Below, in pieces: positions 29,122 to 43,260 of a stretch of DNA of 43,260 nt. Source of the stretch: Sphingobacteriaceae bacterium. Its GTDB lineage: Bacteria > Bacteroidota > Bacteroidia > Sphingobacteriales > Sphingobacteriaceae. Position 1 is the stretch's first letter; every line of letters starts with the position of its first letter. The stretch is from positions 1-43,260 of the forward strand of contig JAHEGO010000006.1 of NCBI GenBank assembly GCA_024645045.1. Reading direction: 5' to 3'. The notes below the pieces were generated by a model that saw nothing but the letters and a program-made list of their open reading frames with translations, did no database searches and had not been told where the DNA came from. The position numbers and the translations under genes were made by a program.

Positions 29122-32100
29122 TTACTTATTAATTACGACACGTTGTGTGATAACTTTATCGTTATACCTCACGTGTGAAAAATAAATACCTGGTGCAATT
29201 GAAGGCATAACGGCTAGTTGCACATTGTTTACCCCCGTTTGCATTCCTTCATAATGTGCAGACTGCATTACCTGTCCTAATACATCTACTAATTGAATTT
29301 CTACATCACCTTGTGAAGGTAATGACAACATATAGTTGATGGCATGACTTGCAGGATTTGGGAATGGGCCTGCTGCAATAAATCCTACTGCTTTAGGGTC
29401 ATTGATTCCTTGCCCACAAGGCGCAAATGGGAATACATACATTGTTAATGTATCATTGGTTTGATTCAAATCATCTTGAATGTCACTTAAATAAGTACTC
29501 AAAACCCTTACCGCTGCTGGATCACAATCTAATACATCATCAAAAGTATGTGATATAACTTCTTGCGGTGCAATGACAGCTGTAATTAATTCTGTTTTGG
29601 TAACGGTGCCATTTTTACCACCTTGAATAGTATAATTAACATTGAAGTTTGAAATGGTATCAGTACCTGAGTTTTTAATTAAAATAGTAACTGGTGTAAA
29701 TTGATCTACTGTACTATTTACAGGCGACACATAAGCATCCATCTTTCCATCTGTAATACTTGATATAGAAGAGAAGAATGTGCTTGTCATGACGTTATTT
29801 AACGGCGTAGTGTCGTTTAATAAATATGCTTCAACTCTTAAAGTATAATTTCCAGTTAATGCAGGTGTAATCTCAGTTTCAAAAGTATAAGTTAATAAAT
29901 CGGCAGGTAACAATGGACGATATGGGTCTTCTACAGGAATAACCTCATTAGCCATTTCAACATTGTCTACAAAATACTTCACGTTCAAACCTGAAACCTT
30001 ACTCAATCCAATATTTTTAACAGAAATCACAACAGGGATTTTTGTTGGATATACTTCTGGTGGAGGTAGTGGATTGTCAATACTTTCAATTTTCACGTCA
30101 CCTAAAACCACAAATTCGTCAGCTCCAATATCTGGGAATTTAGGATCTCTAGGCTGACCTTCAATATCTTTTGTAATTTCAGGGATTACAACACCAGCAG
30201 CATCTAAGAACGTATTGGTTAACCTTAAATTTGTGGTTGTAAAGTAATCTGGATCAACTGAAACTCCATTATCATCTTTCAAATAAACATCTCTGTATTC
30301 GTCAAATGTTAAATAATCAACGGAATTTACCCTAGCAAATAAACCAGTTTTAGTGGCCATGTTATTGTTATCTGATGTATCAATTGAATTTGGATCATCA
30401 ATTAATAATGCAAAACCATTATTTGAATTATAAATTGAGTTATTCAACATGCGAATTCCTTTTGAATTGATATCCATTTTAAGGGCTGCGCTGTTTACAG
30501 AATTACCATCGTAATTAATTGAGTTATTATAAAGATTTAATGGATAAACTTTGTCTAAACTTAAACCAAATCCATCCATACCTAATCTAAATCCACCACC
30601 AATCATATTATTGGCAACTAAAAGACCGTTTACTCCTATGACATCATTCAATGCCATACCTACTGATGATGCATAAACAATTTTGTTATTAGTGATTCGC
30701 GAATCCACACGGTCAATGATTACATTGATTCCTGTTGAATTCAATTGATTTTTACGCATGATTACTTGATTTTGATCAATTGAAGTTAAATCCACATTGG
30801 AACTAAAAATTCCGTAATTGGCTGCACCTTCAATGATATTACTATCAATGGTAACACCAAAATCTCTTATGTATTGACTGGTTCCTCTAACACCAATACC
30901 AATAGCGCCACCATAAATTGCATTCTTAATAATTCTAATATTAGAACCTCCTTTTCCAGCAGTAGTAATACTTGCAGAGTCAGAAGTAGTAATACCATAA
31001 ATATTTGGAGAGGTTGAACCTGTATCCATTTTAATGATACAATCTTTTACTAAGATATTTCTTGCATCAGAAGTGATTTGAATTGCTGCAGAACCTGCAA
31101 TAGATGTACTCGCATTTTTCAAAGTCATGTTTTTAATTTGTACATAACTTGATCTGTTTAAACGAATAATATTACGAGTAGTAGCTCCACTCACACCATT
31201 GCTATTGATAATAACATCTGCTGCATTACCAGTTTCCGATTTGAAAACAACCAAATTAGTAGCTGATGTGTTTTTGGGATTATTTATTGTAAATCTTTCG
31301 TTATAAGTTCCTGGTCTTACATTAAATGTAACTGGACCTGTAATTCCACATGCCAATGAAGCCGCTGCATCTGTAAAGGTTGCAAACGAAGGACTTGCAC
31401 CGCCAATTGTATAGACTCCGGTTTTTAAACCTGTACAAACAATATTTTGAATTGAATCATTTTTGGTAACAGGATCAGTTGTAATTCTATTTGCAGGGTC
31501 TATTCTAACTGCAAATTGATATGTTGAATTAGCTGTTGCATTGAAAGGTGTGCTGAAACTAAATACTGTGCTTGAGTATGCAGTATCTAATGAAGTAGCT
31601 GTATTTGCTGTAGGTGTAAAAGACTCTCCTACTGTTGGCACCCAAACACCAGGTGTTGCTGAATATTGCAACTTAACTGTACTTCCATTTAAACTTGTAC
31701 TACCCAAGTTCATAATTTTTACTTTAATCGTATTAGGATCTGTACTAAATACCAAAGGTTGAATGTCAACTAATGCCATATCCTTTGCATTGATAATAAA
31801 TTCATCAGCACCAATATCTGAATTCAATGGATTTCTACTTTGCTTATCTATATCAACTGCAACAGCAGGAATAAATACGCCTTTATTATCAATTAAAGGA
31901 TTCGTAGTATGTAAATTAAATGCTGAAACAAATTGTGGATCAATTTCTAACGACTTAGTTTCAAAACCAATCATCGATTGTTTTAAACTTGTCAAGTTTA
32001 ATCTATCACCACCCGAAGAACCATAATAAGCATAGTTACCAGCAGTGGTATTAGCATCCGTATAATAAATATTATTGTCAGATGCCCTAATTGAAGTTTG

Positions 32101-34959
32101 GTTCGTTACATAAAATGCATATCCACCAGCAGGGTTGTAGAAAATATTATTCATCAAACTAACATTCACACCAGCTGCTAAGAAAAATGCAGCCGAAGTA
32201 CTTGGAAGAGTTACTGGCGCTTTATCGTAGTAAACAGAATTATGGTAAATATTAATTTTATTTACTTCATTTAAGTAAATACCCGCACCACTTAGTGTTG
32301 TTTTGTAACCACCTGCCAACATGTTATTAGAAACAGTAAGCGCAGTAATACCTTCAACAGTGGTTAAATTAATACCTCTGAAACCAGCATTCGAAATTTT
32401 ATTTCCGTTGATAATACCATCAGATTTAGAACTACTGATTTTAATCCCTTCTGAACTTACAGAAGAATTTGATTTCATACTTATGGTATTCCAACTTACA
32501 GAATTTACACTCGTATTTAATAAGTTTATACCATAACCATAAGCAGAGTCTATTTTATTATTATAGATTACTGTTCCTATAGATTTAAAAGCACCCGATT
32601 GTCCAACAAATTGAATTCCGGTAACTCCATTTTTAATGGTTGTGTTTTTAATGGTCAAGTAATCTGCTTTAACTGCACTGTCAATTTTTGTTTTAAAAGC
32701 TGCAACTACTCCATATTTATAATCAGCCAAATTAGAAGAATTTGGCAAATTAATAATACAACTGTCAATTGTTACATTATTACTTCCAGTAGCAATATGA
32801 AAACCCGAGGCATAACTTGAAGTTGATAAATTGGTTAAAGTAAGATTTTTAAAACTAACATAATCTGCACCGTCTAATTGAATTACATGGTGATTAGTTT
32901 GACCTTGGTTTAAATTGGTGTTTTGAATTATTACGTCTGCTGCATTTCCTGAGAAAGAACGGAAGGTAATTGTTTTATTTGGAGATGCACCTTTAATTGC
33001 AGGAATAGAAAACGGTGTTGGATAAGTTCCTGGATATACATCAAAAACAGTTGGCCCACCTACTCCACATTCAAACGCGGCTAATGCAGAAGCAAATGTT
33101 GGATAATTTTTCAAACCAACAGGTCCACCAATGGTGTACCTACCATTTAAGCCAACACATAAATTTACAATTAATGTATCGTTGTCAAACCAAGTATCTC
33201 CAGGATATGCTGGCTCTACTCTTATCTCCATTGTATATTGTCCTGGCGCTGGAATAATCCATGGTGTAGACAAATTAAATACTTGTTTTGAATAAGATAA
33301 ACTAAGTTGCGTTAAAGTAAATGAATCTACTGGGTTAAATGCTCCATTATTGATACGGTATTTAATTGCCATTTTGTGTCCATTCACACTATTAATAGAA
33401 AGCAATCCGTCATTTTTAATTACAACAGGAATTGTGTTTGAACCTTCTCTTGGAACGAAGTTTTTATCTAATTCAAAAACTTCCAAATCATGTGGACTTC
33501 TGATTACTTCATCGGCACCAACATCTGGCATTTCTGGATCACGAGGATGATTCTCAAAATCGAAAGTAATGAATGGTAGAATATATGCTTTACGAATTAG
33601 CGCTTTGTTGTTTAATCTTAAATTTGTTGCAGATGGGAAATTTGGATTCACATTAAAAGATTGTCCGTTTTTTCCAGTTGCAGTTTTTAAAGATGCTAAA
33701 GAAGTACATTGAGTAGAACCAATAATGGCTAATTTTGTACCTGCTGTAATAAAGTAATTATTATAATTAAAAGTATCTACTGTAGTTAAATTTTTAATAA
33801 TAACAGTAGCCGCACCTAAAGAGGTATGGAAAATATTGTTCTTTAATGAAATTTTAGATGATGGTCTATCTGTAGTATATTCAATTACAAAACATGCATT
33901 TTCAGTATTGAATGCACTAGAATAGAAAATAGTATTATGTAAAAACTGAATACTTTTTGAATATTCCACATGGATACCTCTTGAGAATGCTGCTTTCGAA
34001 GTACCTGAGATCATGTTGTTGTAAACTAAAGCTGCAGATCCTCCATTCACATTGTTAAAGAACATACCAAATGTTCCATAGTTTTTAATTTGGTTGTTAT
34101 AAAAACCAAAGTTACCTGCCGCATCCCTAACACGAATACCAAATTGCATTTGACTTGGGTCAGGACGAATTGTAATTTGATTGTTTGCAATTAAAGGAAT
34201 GTTGTTATAATCAACATCAATACCAGATATACAAGCGTAAATTTTATTGTTGTTGATTTTATTTCCTTTACATGGTTTTATCGTACTTTCTCCTAATAAT
34301 CTAATTGCAAATGCACCACCATAAAATGTATTGTTAACAATACTATTGTAATTTGCACAATTAGCTAAACCAGATGTATTGTTTATATCTGAAGAAACAA
34401 TTCCAATAGCATTACCATTGAAAATAGTGAAGGTAGAATCTAACTTTAATGTACAACGATTAATTGTATTGTAGTCTGCAGAAATTTTTGGATTATCTCT
34501 GCTATACGTTAAATGAAATACTGAAGCAAATGAATTTGTTGAAGATAAAACCCTGTTGTTTTCAATTGTTAAATCTTGAAATGAAACATACCTACACCCT
34601 TCTAAACGAATAACAGAGTTATTGTATAATGTATTGTCTCCGTCATCAACAATAGTAACATCAGCGGCCCTACCCGTTTCAGATTTAAATACTACCACAT
34701 TTTTTGCAGATGCCCCTTTGAAAGGTTTAATTACAATGTTCTCATTGTATACACCAGGTCTAATGTTAAATGTTACACGACCAATAACTTCGGTTCTTGT
34801 ACTTAATAATTCCGTTACTGCTTTTTGTATAGAAGAGTAATTTGCATTATTACCACCAATGGTATAAATACCACTTAAGTATTTTGTTTGTGCTTGTGCA
34901 AAAAAAGTACAAATACTTAAAGTAAATGCAAATAGGCCGACAAAGATTTTCTTATTCAT
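29122..34959 (-). CDS. Giant T9SS-secreted beta-helix/CARDB protein (1945 aa)
   Basis: Secreted or cell-surface protein of 1945 residues. A signal peptide ends near residue 23 (AQA/QT). Three right-handed parallel beta-helix modules follow (about 30-480, 603-1050 and 1176-1612), each opening with YTIGG and PG-Y-E/P and closing with R-P-DIGADEF-like boxes. Each is followed by a CARDB/Ig-like domain (about 485-600, 1055-1175, 1615-1745) and a fourth sandwich (about 1745-1855) precedes the C-terminal sorting domain (about 1860-1945; PNPAS, DVLGQV, GIYFSHVRYNDKV). The last directs export by T9SS. No catalytic residues of pectate lyases are evident. Probably an adhesin or matrix protein; function unproven. 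Second of two related genes, 35 nt apart. Confidence 0.85.
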   Translation of the reverse strand: MNKKIFVGLFAFTLSICTFFAQAQTKYLSGIYTIGGNNANYSSIQKAVTELLSTRTEVIGRVTFNIRPGVYNENIVIKPFKGASAKNVVVFKSETGRAADVTIVDDGDNTLYNNSVIRLEGCRYVSFQDLTIENNRVLSSTNSFASVFHLTYSRDNPKISADYNTINRCTLKLDSTFTIFNGNAIGIVSSDINNTSGLANCANYNSIVNNTFYGGAFAIRLLGESTIKPCKGNKINNNKIYACISGIDVDYNNIPLIANNQITIRPDPSQMQFGIRVRDAAGNFGFYNNQIKNYGTFGMFFNNVNGGSAALVYNNMISGTSKAAFSRGIHVEYSKSIQFLHNTIFYSSAFNTENACFVIEYTTDRPSSKISLKNNIFHTSLGAATVIIKNLTTVDTFNYNNYFITAGTKLAIIGSTQCTSLASLKTATGKNGQSFNVNPNFPSATNLRLNNKALIRKAYILPFITFDFENHPRDPEMPDVGADEVIRSPHDLEVFELDKNFVPREGSNTIPVVIKNDGLLSINSVNGHKMAIKYRINNGAFNPVDSFTLTQLSLSYSKQVFNLSTPWIIPAPGQYTMEIRVEPAYPGDTWFDNDTLIVNLCVGLNGRYTIGGPVGLKNYPTFASALAAFECGVGGPTVFDVYPGTYPTPFSIPAIKGASPNKTITFRSFSGNAADVIIQNTNLNQGQTNHHVIQLDGADYVSFKNLTLTNLSTSSYASGFHIATGSNNVTIDSCIINLPNSSNLADYKYGVVAAFKTKIDSAVKADYLTIKNTTIKNGVTGIQFVGQSGAFKSIGTVIYNNKIDSAYGYGINLLNTSVNSVSWNTISMKSNSSVSSEGIKISSSKSDGIINGNKISNAGFRGINLTTVEGITALTVSNNMLAGGYKTTLSGAGIYLNEVNKINIYHNSVYYDKAPVTLPSTSAAFFLAAGVNVSLMNNIFYNPAGGYAFYVTNQTSIRASDNNIYYTDANTTAGNYAYYGSSGGDRLNLTSLKQSMIGFETKSLEIDPQFVSAFNLHTTNPLIDNKGVFIPAVAVDIDKQSRNPLNSDIGADEFIINAKDMALVDIQPLVFSTDPNTIKVKIMNLGSTSLNGSTVKLQYSATPGVWVPTVGESFTPTANTATSLDTAYSSTVFSFSTPFNATANSTYQFAVRIDPANRITTDPVTKNDSIQNIVCTGLKTGVYTIGGASPSFATFTDAAASLACGITGPVTFNVRPGTYNERFTINNPKNTSATNLVVFKSETGNAADVIINSNGVSGATTRNIIRLNRSSYVQIKNMTLKNASTSIAGSAAIQITSDARNILVKDCIIKMDTGSTSPNIYGITTSDSASITTAGKGGSNIRIIKNAIYGGAIGIGVRGTSQYIRDFGVTIDSNIIEGAANYGIFSSNVDLTSIDQNQVIMRKNQLNSTGINVIIDRVDSRITNNKIVYASSVGMALNDVIGVNGLLVANNMIGGGFRLGMDGFGLSLDKVYPLNLYNNSINYDGNSVNSAALKMDINSKGIRMLNNSIYNSNNGFALLIDDPNSIDTSDNNNMATKTGLFARVNSVDYLTFDEYRDVYLKDDNGVSVDPDYFTTTNLRLTNTFLDAAGVVIPEITKDIEGQPRDPKFPDIGADEFVVLGDVKIESIDNPLPPPEVYPTKIPVVISVKNIGLSKVSGLNVKYFVDNVEMANEVIPVEDPYRPLLPADLLTYTFETEITPALTGNYTLRVEAYLLNDTTPLNNVMTSTFFSSISSITDGKMDAYVSPVNSTVDQFTPVTILIKNSGTDTISNFNVNYTIQGGKNGTVTKTELITAVIAPQEVISHTFDDVLDCDPAAVRVLSTYLSDIQDDLNQTNDTLTMYVFPFAPCGQGINDPKAVGFIAAGPFPNPASHAINYMLSLPSQGDVEIQLVDVLGQVMQSAHYEGMQTGVNNVQLAVMPSIAPGIYFSHVRYNDKVITQRVVINK
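30113..34872 (-). repeat. Three imperfect beta-helix module repeats in the 1945-aa gene
   Basis: Three copies of about 1.3-1.4 kb lie at about 33504-34872, 31799-33153 and 30113-31434. They are ordered and in frame, with the same opening (YTIGG) and ending (DIGADEF, encoded near 33504-33530, 31799-31822 and 30113-30136). The DNA of the end boxes is clearly similar; the interiors have diverged, so these are old duplications. Confidence 0.75.
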
Positions 34960-34994
34960 GTATGCTATTGATTAAATTCTATTTCGCTAATTTT

Positions 34995-37900
34995 TTATTG
35001 ATTAATTTTTACAAATCTTCCATTATGGTATTTCTGACCAGACTTCAAGACATATAAATAAGTGCCTTCTGCTAAATCAGATATATCTGAATTGACTTTC
35101 ACAAAACCTTCTGATGATTGATCAAAATGTTTCGAGCTTACCCTTCTACCAGTTAAATCAAATACTGTTAAATCTATTGCATTTGGTTGATCTTGATACA
35201 TCACAAAGTTAATTTTTGATGCACTTGGGTTTGGATAAGCAGAGAAGTAATCTGTTAGATTATTTGCATCTACCCCTACTAATGTTGATACCGTAATACA
35301 AGTACTGTCATTTTCTGGAATCACATCATCTCCTAAAGTTGTGTATGAACAGATGTCAAATATTACTGCAGAGTCTGGATCAATTTGATATGTAAACTCA
35401 ATGTCATTGATTTGATTTTCTTTTAATTGAGTTGATATTTGCTTAACCTCTTTGACTTTATTATTTACCACCAATGTTGTTTTATATCCATAAGCAGTTA
35501 AGTTTCCATAATTCAAAACGCGAACTTTTACAGGCGTTATTTGCTTCAATGTGATATTATTTAAAGGAGTTAAAAATTGTGAAACCCCAATATCAGACGT
35601 ATCTTTTGAATACAATGTATACCTGATCGTATCATTTAAATTATTGAAATCATTATTCACAATTTGACCGTTTGGATCAGTTTTTTGAATTTCGGTATAA
35701 GCAGTTAATATATGTTTACCGCCTACTCTAGTCGAAAATTTCTTTTTGAAAATTATATTCAACGAAGAATCTGGCATCAAAGGTGCAATTACAACAGTTG
35801 AATCAATAAGTTTATCATCTAATTTATATTTCGCTTTAAAAGTTGACAATTTAACAGATCCAACATTTTTCACCCTAACCCATACTAAAACACTGTCTTT
35901 AAAAGAAGAATTCTGGAAAGGTTTAATTATTGCATTCATTTCAACGTCAAAACCAGGAATAAATTCATCCGCACCAATATCTGGAGAAACTGGATTTCTT
36001 TCTTCTCCATCAATATCTACAGTTACTACAGGGCTTGGAGCTGCTCTTCCATTCAATGCCGCATTATTTACGTGTAAATCAAAATTACTTCTATATAATG
36101 GATCAAACTGCAATGTATTGATAGCCGTAAATATTGGATTCGGCGCCAAACTTAACGCATTGATATCTTTGTAAACTTTTCCTTTCCATCTTACTAAGGT
36201 TGTGTCTTTCGTATACATTACATTGGCTGCAACATCATAAATCTCTTCTAAACTTCCTACTTCTGTTGTAAAGTCTAAAGCATAACCCTTGCCTCTGTTT
36301 TCGAATATATTACTATATATATTCATACTATTTGATTTATAAATTCTGAATGCAGCAGAAGAATCAGATTCGCCATCATACAACAAACTGTTGTTAATAA
36401 TATCGATTGAACCAGATGAGTTAATACCTTTTGAAGGAAATGCTCCTGTATTTCTAATGGCCATTGCTTGGTCACCGTATTTTCCATCTGCTAAGTAACC
36501 GCCAGCAAACATATTATTGGCAATTAAACCACGAGATAGTGTTCTACAGCTGTCCATCATGAATGCTGCATTACCTGCATTGGTAACAATATTTTCTGTA
36601 ATGATAAAATCTGTTAATGCTCCATAAACATTGATACCCGTACTTAACGGATTTCCTTTACGCATATTGATTTTGTTTTTACTGATACTATCAATTTGTG
36701 CAAAGAAAATGTCTATACCTGCAGTGTTGTTTTTATCGAACGTACAATTAATAACTTGGTTTGGTCCACGAGTTGCATTGTCTTTAGTTCCAATAAAACG
36801 AACACCAAATGCTCCTCCATGGAAATTACAATTCTTAACTGTATTGTTATTTGCAGTCGAAGGTTCGGTAAATGCAATTGAACCTGAACCCAACACGCCA
36901 ACTAATGTATTTACAATTGAAACACTGTCGAAATAAAACTCACATCCATCAATGGTATTATAACTAGCACTATCTGCTAAATGAATACCAGATGCTCTTG
37001 CTATTGCAGCACTTTTGAATGTTAAGTTTTTAAAGTTGATGTAACGAGCGCCAGCAATTTGTGCAACGTGATGTTCTGTTTGAATACCTGTATTAGAATA
37101 TTGCAAAATTACATCTTTTGCATTACCAGTAGCAGAAGTAAAGGTAACCGTTGTGTCTTTTGTAGTTTTAATTGGTGGTACAGAGAATCTCTCTGTATAA
37201 GTACCTGGAGAAACTTTGAATACGATAGAAGAATCAAATCCACAAACTAAAGCGACAATTGCTTGAGAGAAATTAGAGAAATCTTCAGTTCCATTTTTTC
37301 CAATGGTGTAATCACCTTTTTCTAATCCAACACATAAGTCTTTACAAATTGTTTCATATTGGAAAATGGTATCTAATGGTAACCTGCATGTTGGAACAAT
37401 ACGAACACATAAAGGAATAACTAAAAAGTCTTTCTTTAAGTGCTTTAAATTAAATGATACAACTTGTTCGTCATATCTACCCTTGAGTTCGTTTAATTGA
37501 ACTGTTTGGTTCCCTTTCCAAGTTTTACCCGAGTCAACAGAATATTCTAAACAAATAGATTTATCTGACAAGTTTAAATTTCCTTCGTTTAATACTGTTA
37601 CTTTAAATGTATTAGAACCATATACCGCCTTCTCATTTACAATATTTAATAAACTGACGTTGTTTGCTTCTCTTTCATATTCGATTGAACCAATATCGGT
37701 AACTCGAGGGCTACGTTTCCTGTTGTTGTAATCTCTTGCAATTCCTTTAACCGGAATTCCTTTTTTATCAAACCTTAAAGTATCTGTTAAATTTAAATTT
37801 GTACCACTGATATATCCAGGATTTAAATTGAAAGAAGTTAAATCTTTTGCAGTACTCAATTGCCAAATAGCAAATGACTGTTGATCCAATACTGGATAAT

Positions 37901-40900
37901 AGGCAAATCTTGATTCGTATTCTGACTTGTAATTATTGTGTTCAAATTCAGAAATGGGGTCGGTTGAATTAAAGAAAATGGTATAAGGTGCAGGAGTAGT
38001 TCCAGGAACTGAATCTACTTGTACTATATTATTTAAAACTTTAATTCCTGTAGGAGTAAAGAATTGTGATACCCAGTTGCCTTGGTCATCTTGCACTTGA
38101 ACTGAATCCCTTGCAATGTTTAATGCCGCGCGCAAACCGTTGTATCGAATTGAATTGTAATAGATACCAATGTTTGATGAGCGCTTAATTAAAATAGCAC
38201 CTGTTGTTGGAGTATTAGAATTTCCAAAGTCGTGTGTAATCCAGTTGTTTGAAATAATCAATTTGTTTTCATCAAATGCATCAACACCATAAGCTTTTAT
38301 ACCTACCCTATTAGAATTTTTAATTGTATTACCATTGATTAATCCACCTTCACCCGCAAAGTTATAAGAGATCGTAATACTTGAATCTGTTACGGTTCTT
38401 GGTGTAAGTATATTGAAACCAATCCTTTTAATGGTATTGTATATTGTATATATACCATTTTGGTAAAAATCATGAATATTATTACTATCAATTACATTGT
38501 TTACATCATAATCAACTTGAGATGCGCCTAATAAAGCTACACCAGCATAACCACCTACCAATTCATTTCTAACAATTTTATTGTTTGATCCATTTTTAGA
38601 ACAAGAAACAGGATCGGTAATGTCTAATTTGTTAGTGGAAGTAAATGCAATTGGATAAAATACTTTGGTTTTTAAAGTGGTGTTCACTTCAACTTTACAA
38701 CCATCAATTACAACTGATTGTGCATTACGAGTAATGTGAATTCCAGAACCAAAATTTGCTCCAGTGTTTTTAATATTCAAGTTTTTAACCCTCACAAAAT
38801 TTGAAGATTGCAAACGTAATGTATAATGCAACTTACTGTCATCACCTACCGGAGTTGCAGGCTGCTGTAAAACTACTTCTGTATTATTTAAAGTGTTGTA
38901 TGGTAAAATATTTAAATAAGGTGAATCTAAAGCCACTAAATATTTAGGAACAATTACCCTTTCTAAATAAGGACTTGATGCAGGGTGCATGTAAATATAT
39001 GTTTCGCATGCAATACCAGCTCTATTAGAAATATCATCAATTGCACCTTTTAGTGTAGTGAAATACCTAGTCGTATCTGTATTTGGTAACCTAGCTGGGA
39101 AACCAACATAATAATTACCACCAATACCCACTCCTAAATCAGCACAACGGGTATTATTGGTATAAACAGTATCTTCTTTTAATGATTTAGAAATTAAATC
39201 AACACAAACTTGATAAGTTGTATAGTCTGTTATAATGAATGGTTTTTTGAAATTATAAATTTGCTCTGAACCAATTGTTTTCATTGTTAATTTAACTGTA
39301 TCTCTACCTGCAGCAGAATAACCATCTGTAGTGACAGTATAAGTTAAAATTACTGAACGACCAGCCAATGAATATTTACCCCTATTTCTTAACCTTACAG
39401 AAAGCACATTTGGTTTACATGCACTTAATAATGGATTTCTTATTTGATTAATATCTAAGTCAATTAAAGGGATGGTAAATTCATCACAACCAATATCAGG
39501 TGTTTTAGATTTTCTTGGCTCTAAGTCAAAATCTGTTTTTACTTCATAGTTGCTTCCTTTACTTTCAACGTTAGGATCATAAGTATGTAAATCGTAAGGT
39601 AATTTTTCAAACTTAACAGGTAAAGCTAAAGACTTTCTATCGCGTGTTGAATTTGTTTGGTCATTTTTGAATGAAGTTAAAGCCGCTTGAGGTGTTTGCG
39701 TTTTTTGCGCAAATGTAAAATTCTTATCCGCATTTGAACCATTTAAATCTGATAAGCGTTTGATCAAAATTAAAGGGGTTGTTTTACTAGGATAAGAAGT
39801 ATAATACAAGTTATTTTCAGATGCAGTTAAACCATTGTTTGGTGCTCTTCCTCCACCTTTTGTTTTAGTATAATATTCTAATGAAATAGCGCCATTTGTT
39901 GAATATAAAATATTATTAAAAGCTTCAATATCTGTATTTGTACTACCAATGGTCATACACCTTGCTACAGAAGCGTTGATTGAAGTTGAACTAGTTCGAG
40001 GTGCATCCATCAATACGGTGTTATTGATAACTGAAACACCCACGCAAGTATTTAAATTAATACCACAGGTTGTTGCACCTGGTGTAGTAAATCCTCCTGC
40101 AATCATATTATTAGCAATCACAAAAGATGCTTTTTTAGATGGTGCAATTTTTTTACTCAAACAGTTTTTTACAGTAATACCTTGCCATGTAATATCATAA
40201 ATTTTATTTCCTGAAATTTCATTGGTAAAATCGCCAGCACGATCTCCCATGAATTTTACTTCAATGGCATTGGCATTTAAATCCATACCGAATTTACCGG
40301 TAATGACATTGTTTAAAATTCTGGTATCTGCATATTCCAAATAGACACCTGTTTTATGAAAACTTGCAATGATATTTTTACTCAACACGTTACCTAAATC
40401 TCTTTGTGCTGTATCTAAACCATACATGGCAATACCAAAATAACCTCCCATAATTTTATTTCCAATTATGGTATTATTACTTGAATTGATGCCGTAACAA
40501 GCAGGTGTAGTCATTAAAGTTCCTAGTTTACTTGAAACTATACCAACTAAAGAAGTTGGATAAGGTGTTTGCGTAGAGTCCAAACGAATGACACAATTCT
40601 TAATTGTATTATATTTTGCATTTCCAGCAAATTGAATACATGATCCATTGGTCATATTTCTATTTTCAACAGTCAATTCATCAAGCGTAATATATTGTGC
40701 ATTGTTCATCAATACTGTTGCATGATTTTCGTTGGTACCACCAAAGAAAGTTAACTTGGTACTGTATGCATTATTTAATGACTTAAACGTAATGGTATTT
40801 ACAGAAGATGAATTTCTGATTTTCCATAAATATACCTGCTCGTCGTATGTACCATCAGCTAATTCAATAATAGTTGGACCCGCTACCCCACATTTCAAAT

Positions 40901-43208
40901 ACTCATAAGTTTGTTGCAAACTAGAAAAAGTGCTGTCATTTGGTAGTTTATTTCTATCAATTAAGAATCGACCATCTAAACCGACGCAAACATCAATCGT
41001 TAAAGAATCGTTGAATGCACGTTGATCCCCTACTGGAGAAGTGGCAATGTATACGGTAAATTTGAAACTTTGATAACTAGGTCTGTTTACCCAATATTTA
41101 GCGGGTACCACAAAACTTTCAGTGGTGAAGTAACTTGATAAACTGGTAAATGTATGTTCAATGGCAGAATCTGGATCAATTTGATCTACGCCATTAATTT
41201 TATACATGAAATATAATTTCTTATTCGTACCAGAAGTTGGACCTTGGTAACGAACATAAATTTTCCATGGTGTTGGTTTTTTATATTTGAATACATCTGG
41301 TGTAATTCCTATGATGGCGAAATCTTCTCCACCTGGTCCAAATTCATCACAACCAATATCTGGTGGATTTATTTGATCTCTTAATTCATTGTCATAATCG
41401 ACTGAAACTTCTGTTAAAGGTGCTGTATTTCCTTTTTGATTAATGTCTGAAGAAAGTGAGTGTAAATCTGTAGGTGCAAAGAAGAAAGGATCTTTACTAA
41501 TTGTCAATTGATCTTTTCCAGAAGCTAATACCAATTCTCTTAAGTTAATTCTTGGAGCAGAGTTCCAATAGGTAAATCCAGAAACAGGATTGGTATTCGT
41601 GTCTAGCTTAGCAACAAAATAATCATTGTTATTTGCAGCAACTACAGGATTTGATGCAGCGGCAGCAGCATTGTAAAATGCATATCCAAAATTTGCATTA
41701 TAAAAAATATTATTAAAAACTTTAATTGGATTACTTGCAAGAGAACCAGCACCAGAAACGTAAAAAGCGGATGTATTATCAGGTGCTCCAACATTGGTTG
41801 GTGCATCCATTCTAACCGAGTTAAAATAAACATTTACCCATCCACAGCTATTGATAGACAAACCTTGAGGTAAATCAACAGAAGCGGTTTTATTACTAAA
41901 GAAGCCACCGGCAATCATGTTATTAGAAACGTTGACAGACCTGTTGGTTGGTGCACCTGTTCCTATAACAGCATTCATGTAAATACCGTATTGTCCAGCA
42001 CCTGTTACATAGTTGAATGTTATTTCAATATTTCCAGGAGAACTGGTAGAAATATTTTGCAAGTAATAACCCGCAGATTTTAAATCGGCAGAAGGTCTTA
42101 GCGAAACTTTATTCTTTTTAAGTTTTAAGTTGGTTAAACAATTTACATTGATACCATAATATGAAACCTGGTTAATGGTATTGTTTTCAATAACAATTCC
42201 TGTATCTCTAGCAGATGCGGAACTTGATATGGCAATACCGTAATAACCACCAGAAATTAAATTGTTTGTAATGGTGGCAAATTTTCCAGAAGTAGTTGCT
42301 GCTAAATTATAAGGTGAAGCAGACATATCTGCTAATAATATACCTGCAAATCCTCTTCCATTTGAAATGGAATCGACTGAAATATCACAATTATTAATGG
42401 TATTGTATTTTGCATCATTTAACATTTGCACACCAATACCTGAAATAATATTCTTGTTGACAATTTTTAAATTCCTTAAAGTAATTCTGTCCGCACCATT
42501 TAATTTAACAGATGTTTGAACCGAAGCATTGGTAACAATATATACATCTCTTCCACCCGATTGTGATTCAACAATTACATTTTTAGAAGGTATAACTGAA
42601 TTGTTATAATCTATTGCAGGTAATTCTAAAGGTTCGGTATAAGTTCCTGGCTTAACTTTAATCGTTAAGTCGTTACTGATACCTGAATAACGAATTGCAT
42701 TAAATGCATCAGCAATAGTTCTATAATCTGACGGGGCAATACCTACAATTTTAGTTCCTGCAATTGGAGTTGCAGTATATGCAGTTAATGTATCATTTGA
42801 TGCATTAGCATCTGTTTGGTTATTTGCTTCGATGGTATAAAACTCAAAGTTTTTACCCGCTAAATCAGTAAATGTAGTTGATAAAGTAACATTCGCTGTT
42901 GGTATTTGATTACTCGATGAAGCAGCTGGAATTGTAATAAAATTTGAATAGTTTGGTTGAACCACTCCGTTAATTTTCCATCCAACTTTCAAACTGGTAA
43001 TGGCAACTGTTCCGTAATTTCTAACTTTTACGATAACTGATTTATTAGCTGCTCCTGTATGAGGCGCTAATGGTGCCACTAAACCATACACCCCAATATC
43101 AATCACATTCTGAGCGAATGTAGTTGCACTTAAGGTTAAACAAAAAGCACTTAACAAGAATGATCTTATTAGTTTTTTTGAATTGAATTTAAATTGCTTC
43201 ATCATCAT
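34995..43208 (-). CDS. Giant T9SS-secreted beta-helix/CARDB protein (about 2740 aa)
   Basis: The larger relative of the neighbouring gene. The frame is open to ATG 43253, but a normal signal peptide (MKQFKFNSKKLIRSFLLS..., cleaved at TTFA/Q) starts at one of the ATGs 43202-43208, so 43208 is chosen (2737 residues). Order: an N-terminal CARDB-like domain (about 32-145); beta-helix 1 (150-620), 2 (743-1240), 3 (1360-1836) and 4 (1961-2410), each ending DIGCDEF, DIGSIEY or DIGADEF; CARDB-like domains between them and two after helix 4; and a T9SS sorting domain (about 2650-2737; YPNPSASK, DLTGRRV, GTYLYVL). Secreted, likely surface-bound. The upstream control region lies beyond the window. Confidence 0.85.
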   Translation of the reverse strand: MMMKQFKFNSKKLIRSFLLSAFCLTLSATTFAQNVIDIGVYGLVAPLAPHTGAANKSVIVKVRNYGTVAITSLKVGWKINGVVQPNYSNFITIPAASSSNQIPTANVTLSTTFTDLAGKNFEFYTIEANNQTDANASNDTLTAYTATPIAGTKIVGIAPSDYRTIADAFNAIRYSGISNDLTIKVKPGTYTEPLELPAIDYNNSVIPSKNVIVESQSGGRDVYIVTNASVQTSVKLNGADRITLRNLKIVNKNIISGIGVQMLNDAKYNTINNCDISVDSISNGRGFAGILLADMSASPYNLAATTSGKFATITNNLISGGYYGIAISSSASARDTGIVIENNTINQVSYYGINVNCLTNLKLKKNKVSLRPSADLKSAGYYLQNISTSSPGNIEITFNYVTGAGQYGIYMNAVIGTGAPTNRSVNVSNNMIAGGFFSNKTASVDLPQGLSINSCGWVNVYFNSVRMDAPTNVGAPDNTSAFYVSGAGSLASNPIKVFNNIFYNANFGYAFYNAAAAASNPVVAANNNDYFVAKLDTNTNPVSGFTYWNSAPRINLRELVLASGKDQLTISKDPFFFAPTDLHSLSSDINQKGNTAPLTEVSVDYDNELRDQINPPDIGCDEFGPGGEDFAIIGITPDVFKYKKPTPWKIYVRYQGPTSGTNKKLYFMYKINGVDQIDPDSAIEHTFTSLSSYFTTESFVVPAKYWVNRPSYQSFKFTVYIATSPVGDQRAFNDSLTIDVCVGLDGRFLIDRNKLPNDSTFSSLQQTYEYLKCGVAGPTIIELADGTYDEQVYLWKIRNSSSVNTITFKSLNNAYSTKLTFFGGTNENHATVLMNNAQYITLDELTVENRNMTNGSCIQFAGNAKYNTIKNCVIRLDSTQTPYPTSLVGIVSSKLGTLMTTPACYGINSSNNTIIGNKIMGGYFGIAMYGLDTAQRDLGNVLSKNIIASFHKTGVYLEYADTRILNNVITGKFGMDLNANAIEVKFMGDRAGDFTNEISGNKIYDITWQGITVKNCLSKKIAPSKKASFVIANNMIAGGFTTPGATTCGINLNTCVGVSVINNTVLMDAPRTSSTSINASVARCMTIGSTNTDIEAFNNILYSTNGAISLEYYTKTKGGGRAPNNGLTASENNLYYTSYPSKTTPLILIKRLSDLNGSNADKNFTFAQKTQTPQAALTSFKNDQTNSTRDRKSLALPVKFEKLPYDLHTYDPNVESKGSNYEVKTDFDLEPRKSKTPDIGCDEFTIPLIDLDINQIRNPLLSACKPNVLSVRLRNRGKYSLAGRSVILTYTVTTDGYSAAGRDTVKLTMKTIGSEQIYNFKKPFIITDYTTYQVCVDLISKSLKEDTVYTNNTRCADLGVGIGGNYYVGFPARLPNTDTTRYFTTLKGAIDDISNRAGIACETYIYMHPASSPYLERVIVPKYLVALDSPYLNILPYNTLNNTEVVLQQPATPVGDDSKLHYTLRLQSSNFVRVKNLNIKNTGANFGSGIHITRNAQSVVIDGCKVEVNTTLKTKVFYPIAFTSTNKLDITDPVSCSKNGSNNKIVRNELVGGYAGVALLGASQVDYDVNNVIDSNNIHDFYQNGIYTIYNTIKRIGFNILTPRTVTDSSITISYNFAGEGGLINGNTIKNSNRVGIKAYGVDAFDENKLIISNNWITHDFGNSNTPTTGAILIKRSSNIGIYYNSIRYNGLRAALNIARDSVQVQDDQGNWVSQFFTPTGIKVLNNIVQVDSVPGTTPAPYTIFFNSTDPISEFEHNNYKSEYESRFAYYPVLDQQSFAIWQLSTAKDLTSFNLNPGYISGTNLNLTDTLRFDKKGIPVKGIARDYNNRKRSPRVTDIGSIEYEREANNVSLLNIVNEKAVYGSNTFKVTVLNEGNLNLSDKSICLEYSVDSGKTWKGNQTVQLNELKGRYDEQVVSFNLKHLKKDFLVIPLCVRIVPTCRLPLDTIFQYETICKDLCVGLEKGDYTIGKNGTEDFSNFSQAIVALVCGFDSSIVFKVSPGTYTERFSVPPIKTTKDTTVTFTSATGNAKDVILQYSNTGIQTEHHVAQIAGARYINFKNLTFKSAAIARASGIHLADSASYNTIDGCEFYFDSVSIVNTLVGVLGSGSIAFTEPSTANNNTVKNCNFHGGAFGVRFIGTKDNATRGPNQVINCTFDKNNTAGIDIFFAQIDSISKNKINMRKGNPLSTGINVYGALTDFIITENIVTNAGNAAFMMDSCRTLSRGLIANNMFAGGYLADGKYGDQAMAIRNTGAFPSKGINSSGSIDIINNSLLYDGESDSSAAFRIYKSNSMNIYSNIFENRGKGYALDFTTEVGSLEEIYDVAANVMYTKDTTLVRWKGKVYKDINALSLAPNPIFTAINTLQFDPLYRSNFDLHVNNAALNGRAAPSPVVTVDIDGEERNPVSPDIGADEFIPGFDVEMNAIIKPFQNSSFKDSVLVWVRVKNVGSVKLSTFKAKYKLDDKLIDSTVVIAPLMPDSSLNIIFKKKFSTRVGGKHILTAYTEIQKTDPNGQIVNNDFNNLNDTIRYTLYSKDTSDIGVSQFLTPLNNITLKQITPVKVRVLNYGNLTAYGYKTTLVVNNKVKEVKQISTQLKENQINDIEFTYQIDPDSAVIFDICSYTTLGDDVIPENDSTCITVSTLVGVDANNLTDYFSAYPNPSASKINFVMYQDQPNAIDLTVFDLTGRRVSSKHFDQSSEGFVKVNSDISDLAEGTYLYVLKSGQKYHNGRFVKINQ
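35963..42760 (-). repeat. Four imperfect beta-helix module repeats in the giant gene
   Basis: Four copies of about 1.4-1.5 kb lie at about 41341-42760, 39478-40982, 37681-39132 and 35963-37328. The end boxes near 41341-41362, 39478-39500, 37681-37700 and 35963-35983 share DNA such as ACCAATATC and encode DIG(C/A/S)-E-F/Y. The third copy is the most divergent (DIGSIEY). Confidence 0.75.
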
Positions 43209-43260
43209 GTGGTATTTCATAGGATATGGCGACAGGTAAAAACCCATCGCCATTCCAATT

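Follow-up and report, generated by a model that had tools for sequence, protein, structure and literature searches.

The proteins described here resemble several known systems, and differ from each of them in arrangement. Their beads share the profile and fold of the CARDB domain (PF07705; solved example PF1109, PDB 3idu), but here the beads sit between beta-helices and their loop cysteines go with those of the neighboring helices. Their helix modules match the pectate-lyase-like right-handed beta-helix (PF13229; GH110, rhamnogalacturonan lyase and pectin methylesterase folds), from which they differ in being tandem repeats split by CARDB beads. With type A cargo of the type IX secretion system (T9SS) they have the C-terminal sorting domain in common (TIGR04183/PF18962); they are distinguished from it as giant multi-bead cargo with proposed inter-domain cysteine staples. 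Disulfides form among periplasmic proteins of Bacteroidota and matter there (PMC12635249). These SprF/PorG-GldK disulfides join separate proteins of the machinery for secretion and gliding, whereas the staples proposed below lie within a secreted rod. No description of CARDB-helix disulfides was found in the open-access literature, and to our knowledge interchangeable inter-domain staples with a sequence-readable rule have not been described before. The analysis presented here makes it very probable that exchangeable inter-domain disulfides, each running from a CARDB bead to a helix, cross-brace these long, type IX-secreted rods.

The window (the whole stretch of 43,260 nucleotides of the Sphingobacteriaceae bacterium contig that was analyzed) contains two adjoining open reading frames, A and B, both on the reverse strand (Table 1). 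ORF A runs from a signal-like start through helix module A1, a CARDB, A2, a CARDB, A3 and a CARDB-like region to a T9SS sorting tail; ORF B has a signal-like start, a CARDB-like domain, B1, CARDB, B2, CARDB, B3, CARDB, B4, a CARDB-like region and again a T9SS sorting tail. The signal-like starts of both were judged by eye, and the seven helix modules of the window, A1–A3 and B1–B4, were defined by profile match and alignment. The CARDB profile (PF07705) scores 45.3 bits in A and 22.7 bits in B, the latter exactly at the curated cut-off of 22.7. The PF13229 beta-helix profile matches B with 54.1 bits (cut-off 25.9), and A is not among its matches; the T9SS C-terminal sorting domain (TIGR04183/PF18962) is found with 39.1 and 36.4 bits in the two proteins (NCBIfam cut-off 23).

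Table 1. Features of ORFs A and B in the window, each protein listed from N- to C-terminus.
Feature	Position	Strand	Remarks
ORF A	29122..34959	(-)	1945 aa
Helix module A1	33490..34896	(-)	N-terminal; no CARDB upstream, no Cys pair
Linker + helix module A2	31777..33186	(-)	
A C601	33157..33159	(-)	Linker Cys of A2, type I
A C631	33067..33069	(-)	Cap Cys of A2, type I
Linker + helix module A3	30010..31464	(-)	Includes start of next CARDB
A C1175	31435..31437	(-)	Linker Cys of A3, type I; final residue of CARDB strand G in model
A C1204	31348..31350	(-)	Cap Cys of A3, type I; directly after capping alpha-helix in model
ORF B	34995..43253	(-)	2752 aa; frame open to contig end
CARDB-like domain upstream of B1	42774..43112	(-)	No Cys; boundaries approximate
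Helix module B1	41334..42776	(-)	After CARDB-like domain; no Cys pair
B C635	41349..41351	(-)	In 'PDIGCDEF' at end of B1; no clear partner found
Linker + helix module B2	39474..41018	(-)	
B C756	40986..40988	(-)	Linker Cys of B2, type I
B C788	40890..40892	(-)	Cap Cys of B2, type I
B C1256	39486..39488	(-)	In 'PDIGCDEF' at end of B2; no clear partner found
B C1279	39417..39419	(-)	CARDB A-B loop, column 15; proposed partner of C1416 (type II)
B C1350	39204..39206	(-)	CARDB strand F, column 81; proposed partner of C1370
Linker + helix module B3	37629..39173	(-)	Staple differs from other modules
B C1370	39144..39146	(-)	CARDB strand G, column 101; 'linker Cys' of the initial annotation
B C1416	39006..39008	(-)	Cap Cys of B3; proposed partner C1279
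B C1949	37407..37409	(-)	CARDB column 81
B C1970	37344..37346	(-)	CARDB column 101; proposed CARDB-internal bond with C1949
Linker + helix module B4	35934..37364	(-)	
B C1974	37332..37334	(-)	Linker Cys of B4, type I
B C2004	37242..37244	(-)	Cap Cys of B4, type I

The initial annotation of this DNA had listed ten cysteines as five pairs, each made of a cysteine in the linker behind a CARDB-like domain and a second one at the first helix turn, and had read each pair as a disulfide that locks the linker to the helix cap. All ten cysteines are present where it placed them, with spacings of 30 (A2), 29 (A3), 32 (B2), 46 (B3) and 30 residues (B4), and the first module of each protein (A1 and B1) indeed has neither a linker nor a cap cysteine. 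Its feature is thus real and its reading mostly correct, with exceptions on two points. The pairing holds for A2, A3, B2 and B4, whose cap cysteine lies 29–32 residues downstream of the linker cysteine, but not for B3 (see below). Its rule that CARDB-preceded modules have the pair fails, because B1 follows a clear CARDB-like domain, itself free of cysteine, and yet lacks both residues; within the window "not the first module" is a closer rule than "CARDB-preceded". A further cysteine, in an N-x-I-x-x-C motif of the helix ladder (A3 alignment position 142), is conserved in every one of the seven window modules and in 209 of the 296 homologous ones; it is probably a buried free thiol. As a candidate partner of the linker cysteine this residue (C140 of the profile) was rejected, since it displays no tree-aware dependence on it (LR 3.5).

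An AlphaFold model of the CARDB and the first part of A3 has a mean pLDDT of 85, and it served as the query of the structure searches, whose lists were used for naming the folds. Residues 124–325 of the model match polysaccharide lyases, pectin methylesterases and GH110 (best Z 16.5, rmsd 2.1 over 156 residues), and the CARDB bead, which has seven strands, matches PDB 3idu in Foldseek (a weak E of about 1e-3, but TM by target 0.59–0.62). The internal repeat can accordingly be read as a CARDB (Ig-like) bead with a right-handed beta-helix of the pectate-lyase type behind it, and the proposed disulfide would tie the exit face of the bead to the cap at the helix N-terminus. In type I (A2, A3, B2 and B4) it would start in the C-x-GL linker, where CARDB strand G ends, and reach the loop that follows the capping alpha-helix. 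In type II (B3) it would connect the CARDB A-B loop (C1279) to the cap (C1416), and in homologues the CARDB E-F loop or other linker positions may serve the same job. The strand order in the model (seven alternating strands) places column 15 (A-B loop), column 76 (E-F loop) and column 105 (end of strand G) on what is predicted to be the exit face, and column 59 (D-E loop) on the putative entry face; the next helix would meet the exit face, and the previous helix the entry face.

Of 295 sampled genomes of the class, 114 contain a match (E 1e-30 or better) to a profile built from the seven window modules, so proteins with these modules are common there. Loci were fetched for a subset of the genomes with matches, with larger stretches used for chosen loci. 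The 113 loci searched gave 322 module hits, of which 296 modules, from 111 loci, have the cap covered; loci L073 and L074, which duplicate L040 and L044, were excluded from the counts, and L001–L008, L010–L039 and L078–L104 lie outside them. The profile consensus holds both cysteines (...LCTGLSGTYTIGG...ALNSCGVSGPVTFNV...), and the pair is therefore a feature of the family and not a local one. When a linker cysteine at offset 5 or 6 is set against a cap cysteine at offset 8 or 9, 84 of the 296 modules have both, 2 the linker cysteine only, 18 the cap cysteine only and 192 neither (Fisher 6e-53), so that the cap cysteine is present in 84 of the 86 modules having the linker cysteine; after redundancy reduction at 60% the same four classes contain 47, 2, 15 and 140 of 204 modules. 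Homologues with one cysteine only, which the initial annotation had regarded as speaking against a bond, make up 20 of the 104 modules with either residue, and the other 84 have both. These one-cysteine homologues largely seem to become other kinds of staple rather than a refutation, since the preceding CARDB offers 10 of the 18 cap-only modules a different candidate partner, and cap cysteines of a second class (HMM 43) go with a CARDB loop cysteine. Among the 209 CARDB-preceded modules, a cap cysteine and a candidate partner occur together in 167, the cap cysteine alone in 1, the partner alone in 4, and neither in 37, B1 among them. The idea that all CARDB-preceded modules carry a pair was rejected on the strength of B1 and these 37 modules, which show that the staple is not essential for the architecture.

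Could the cysteines be unpaired or metal-binding, and travel together only through the inheritance of whole modules? Modules of one protein are often of the same type, cysteine columns with no pairing signal are common (HMM 140, for example), and some non-partner columns are weakly associated too, all of which would be expected from this explanation. The dependence of the two residues was therefore measured on a tree built from the module body, with linker and cap left out, a test that allows for inheritance. Dependent evolution of the linker and cap cysteines is favored over independent evolution with LR 132.5 (p 1e-27; 125.0 in a control run with fewer optimizer starts), as against LR 3.3–18.8 for eight other cysteine columns compared with the linker cysteine. 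On the same tree 24 of 34 linker changes fall on a branch that also has a cap change, where 2.7 are expected (length-weighted) and the maximum of 2000 random placements is 8. Among all 101,926 column pairs HMM 11-40 ranks 9th by corrected mutual information. Lineage effects are present, as indicated by control columns 249 (p 0.027) and 352 (p 9e-4), which also fall below 0.05 against the linker cysteine, and by CARDB column 59, which is associated with non-partner cysteines. Partner positions moreover shift together in register: the linker-cap pairs HMM 11-40, 13-43 and 15-44 have a difference of 29–30 (28 where the cap cysteine is at 39), and a cap cysteine at offset 4 accompanies a linker cysteine at offset 1 in 5 of 6 modules and one at offset 5 accompanies linker offset 3 in 9 of 9. 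A pair of cysteines with no further ligand is a poor metal site. Unpaired or metal-binding cysteines that merely share a history are thus very unlikely, and a linker-cap disulfide is well supported by the correlated gain and loss of its two residues, strongly so for the four type I pairs of the window. The near-constant difference would fit two parallel strands in register, and the constant sum of 182 shared by the CARDB-internal pairs 81-101 and 79-103 (found in 14/14 modules with C81 and in 4/4, respectively) would fit an antiparallel hairpin.

Module B3 departs from this pattern in several respects. C1370 sits nine residues before the GxY motif, where type I linker cysteines lie five or six residues before it, and the B3 cap cysteine is four residues before the reference strand position, not eight. 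In the CARDB alignment C1370 falls in column 101, which pairs with column 81, the column of C1350; in the B3 model (DSSP) these two cysteines, model residues 117 and 97, are on strands 115–130 and 93–100, which form a hairpin of neighboring strands G and F. The B3 bead also has a cysteine at column 15, and 68 of the 70 modules with C15 have a cap cysteine at offset 5 or 4. Because of these family statistics the bonds of B3 are most likely C1279–C1416, from CARDB to cap, and C1350–C1370, a CARDB-internal F-G bond, so that the pair C1370–C1416 of the initial annotation was most likely mis-assigned. A single uniform linker-cap disulfide in every CARDB-preceded module, which in B3 would be C1370–C1416, can point to the presence of both residues in B3 and in its two same-genus orthologues, but it is very unlikely in view of the alignment of C1370 with column 101, where all 14 modules with C81 (B3 has it) also have a cysteine, the hairpin position of the two residues in the model, the A-B loop cysteine with its usual cap partner, and the CARDB-preceded module B1 with neither cysteine.

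The type II bond proposed for B3 has many counterparts in the family. The cysteine at CARDB column 15 (A-B loop) and that at cap HMM 43 (offset 5, in 'GVCGPV') occur together in 65 modules, the CARDB one alone in 5, the cap one alone in 7 and neither in 132 (p 1e-39), and their dependence on the tree has LR 122.5. Six of the seven cap-43-only rows have a linker cysteine (L075 twice, L076, L077, L134, and L142 at offset 10), and in the seventh (L152) an A-B loop cysteine was missed by the alignment. The five CARDB-15-only rows are B3 and its two orthologues, where the cap cysteine is one column off, one module with both cap cysteines, and L134, which is a true exception. A reading of the HMM 43 cysteine as unpaired, suggested by 67 modules that have it and no linker cysteine at offsets 1–6, was rejected because 65 of the 70 modules with a CARDB A-B loop cysteine carry it. 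The A-B loop cysteine and the cap cysteine at offset 8 or 9 are also dependent (LR 47.4), here in the sense of mutual exclusion. HMM 418 was considered as a partner for cap 43 and set aside, as the two sites are expected at opposite helix ends; C418 is found only in modules with cap 43 (16/16, from 11 loci, e.g., L175, L173, L152 and L171). HMM columns 69 and 134 form a strongly linked cysteine pair in a few modules (phi 0.91, weighted counts 5 and 6).

The 18 modules with cap offset 8 or 9 and no linker cysteine comprise nine with a cysteine at CARDB 75/76, one with an A-B loop cysteine (L120) and eight without a clear partner; the latter are L113 and seven modules with no detected CARDB, six of which follow Ig-like domains. 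Restricted to CARDB-preceded modules the class has 11 members, the nine with 75/76, the one with the A-B loop cysteine, and L113 with none. Locus L108 has a cap-5 module with neither a detected CARDB nor a clear partner, and in the discovery set nine cap cysteines in total have neither a linker cysteine nor a candidate partner. For the cap-only modules (L123, L116, L068 and L009) behind Ig-like domains that bear two late cysteines, in 'YYRCxVxC' or a similar sequence, no obvious partner of the cap cysteine was found. L009, on contig C58 of the same genome as the window, encodes a third giant protein (2786 aa) with three modules, one having a cap-only cysteine after an Ig-like bead, one a type II staple and one no staple. 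These partnerless caps could be taken to mean that the cap cysteine bonds between chains or subunits and not within one chain, and co-occurrence within a chain is compatible with that too. Such bonding is extremely unlikely: going by sequence order, the partners are found on the side of the CARDB that faces the cap, and most N-terminal modules, which lack a bead before them, have no cap cysteine. The preferred reading is thus still a bond within one chain, from a bead to the helix that follows it.

The other face of the CARDB displays a comparable association with the helix that precedes it. Among 138 consecutive pairs, cysteines at HMM 421 of the previous helix and at CARDB column 59 go together in 34/34 and 34/35 cases (p 1.5e-31, 12 loci, L156, L158, L117, L178, L122, L062 and others), with LR 97.7 on the tree versus 5.5 for a control. 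It is proposed that 421-59 is a second staple, which in some lineages would additionally tie the last part of the preceding helix to the CARDB entry face. Weaker associations link CARDB 59 to HMM 39 of the next module and HMM 179 of the previous one, and on the tree it is associated with cap offset 5 (LR 24.0); the association with non-partner cysteines means that lineage plays a part in its signal. The cysteines of CARDB, linker and cap add up to an odd number in 27 of 77 type I modules, and 22 of the 77 have C59, which would pair with a residue of the previous module. No cysteine at column 59 was found among the CARDB beads of the window.

Predictions were written down before 30 unused loci with 84 modules were fetched, 22 of them from genomes with no earlier stretch and the remaining 8 from further stretches of genomes sampled before. 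Compared with the discovery set, the modules have a median identity of 46% and a maximum of 74% (83 modules with a match of at least 250 residues). The type I residues occur together in 23 of the 84 held-out modules, with 1 linker only, 0 cap only and 60 neither. In the 70 that are CARDB-preceded, a cap-5 cysteine has a partner in 32 of 32 and a CARDB A-B cysteine has a cap cysteine at offset 5 or 4 in 28 of 29; overall concordance is 68/70. The 421-59 pair is seen in 10 of 47 consecutive held-out pairs, with one more having the CARDB cysteine only, and this becomes 11/11 when neighboring columns are allowed.

The prediction for N-terminal modules fared less well, in that 9 of 13 held-out ones are without both cysteines, below the predicted fraction of at least 85%. 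The four failures have no signal-like start; two are cut at the locus edge and two are short frames with an incomplete CARDB, one of which has a masked stretch. All nine held-out N-terminal modules that do have a signal-like start are without both cysteines, a filter applied after the result had been seen. In the discovery set 44 of 47 N-terminal modules with a signal-like start have neither cysteine; the exceptions are L120 and L174, where a cysteine directly follows the signal peptide and the cap has a matching one, and L160, with a cysteine inside the signal-like stretch. Most first modules lack the pair, it appears, because there is no preceding bead to bond to; B1, where the bead is present and the pair absent, is a counter-case to this account.

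Taken as a whole, these associations make it reasonably likely that in giant type IX-secreted proteins of the class interchangeable disulfides lock the CARDB and helix faces together, that many such chains are therefore rods with covalent cross-braces, and that the bonds of most members can be told from the sequence. The routes of this putative code would be from the end of strand G, the A-B loop or the E-F loop to the next cap, and from the D-E loop to the previous helix end. A CARDB and its next helix would fold in the periplasm, where their facing cysteines would be oxidized, and the stapled rod would then be exported by the T9SS, the staples stiffening a long surface or secreted rod; likely benefits are rigidity and resistance to unfolding or proteolysis. 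Neither VKOR nor DsbB was found in this genome, and VKOR is present in 4 of 31 genomes, this genome being counted in the 31. The only DSBA-family match of the genome (L210) has no signal peptide and, judging from its start, looks cytosolic; it adjoins a DnaK-like gene (named by eye). Staples of this kind, if real, call for a periplasmic oxidant, given that no DsbB or VKOR was found. They would also provide a sequence rule for inter-domain contacts, and would account for the rigidity of rods thousands of residues long.
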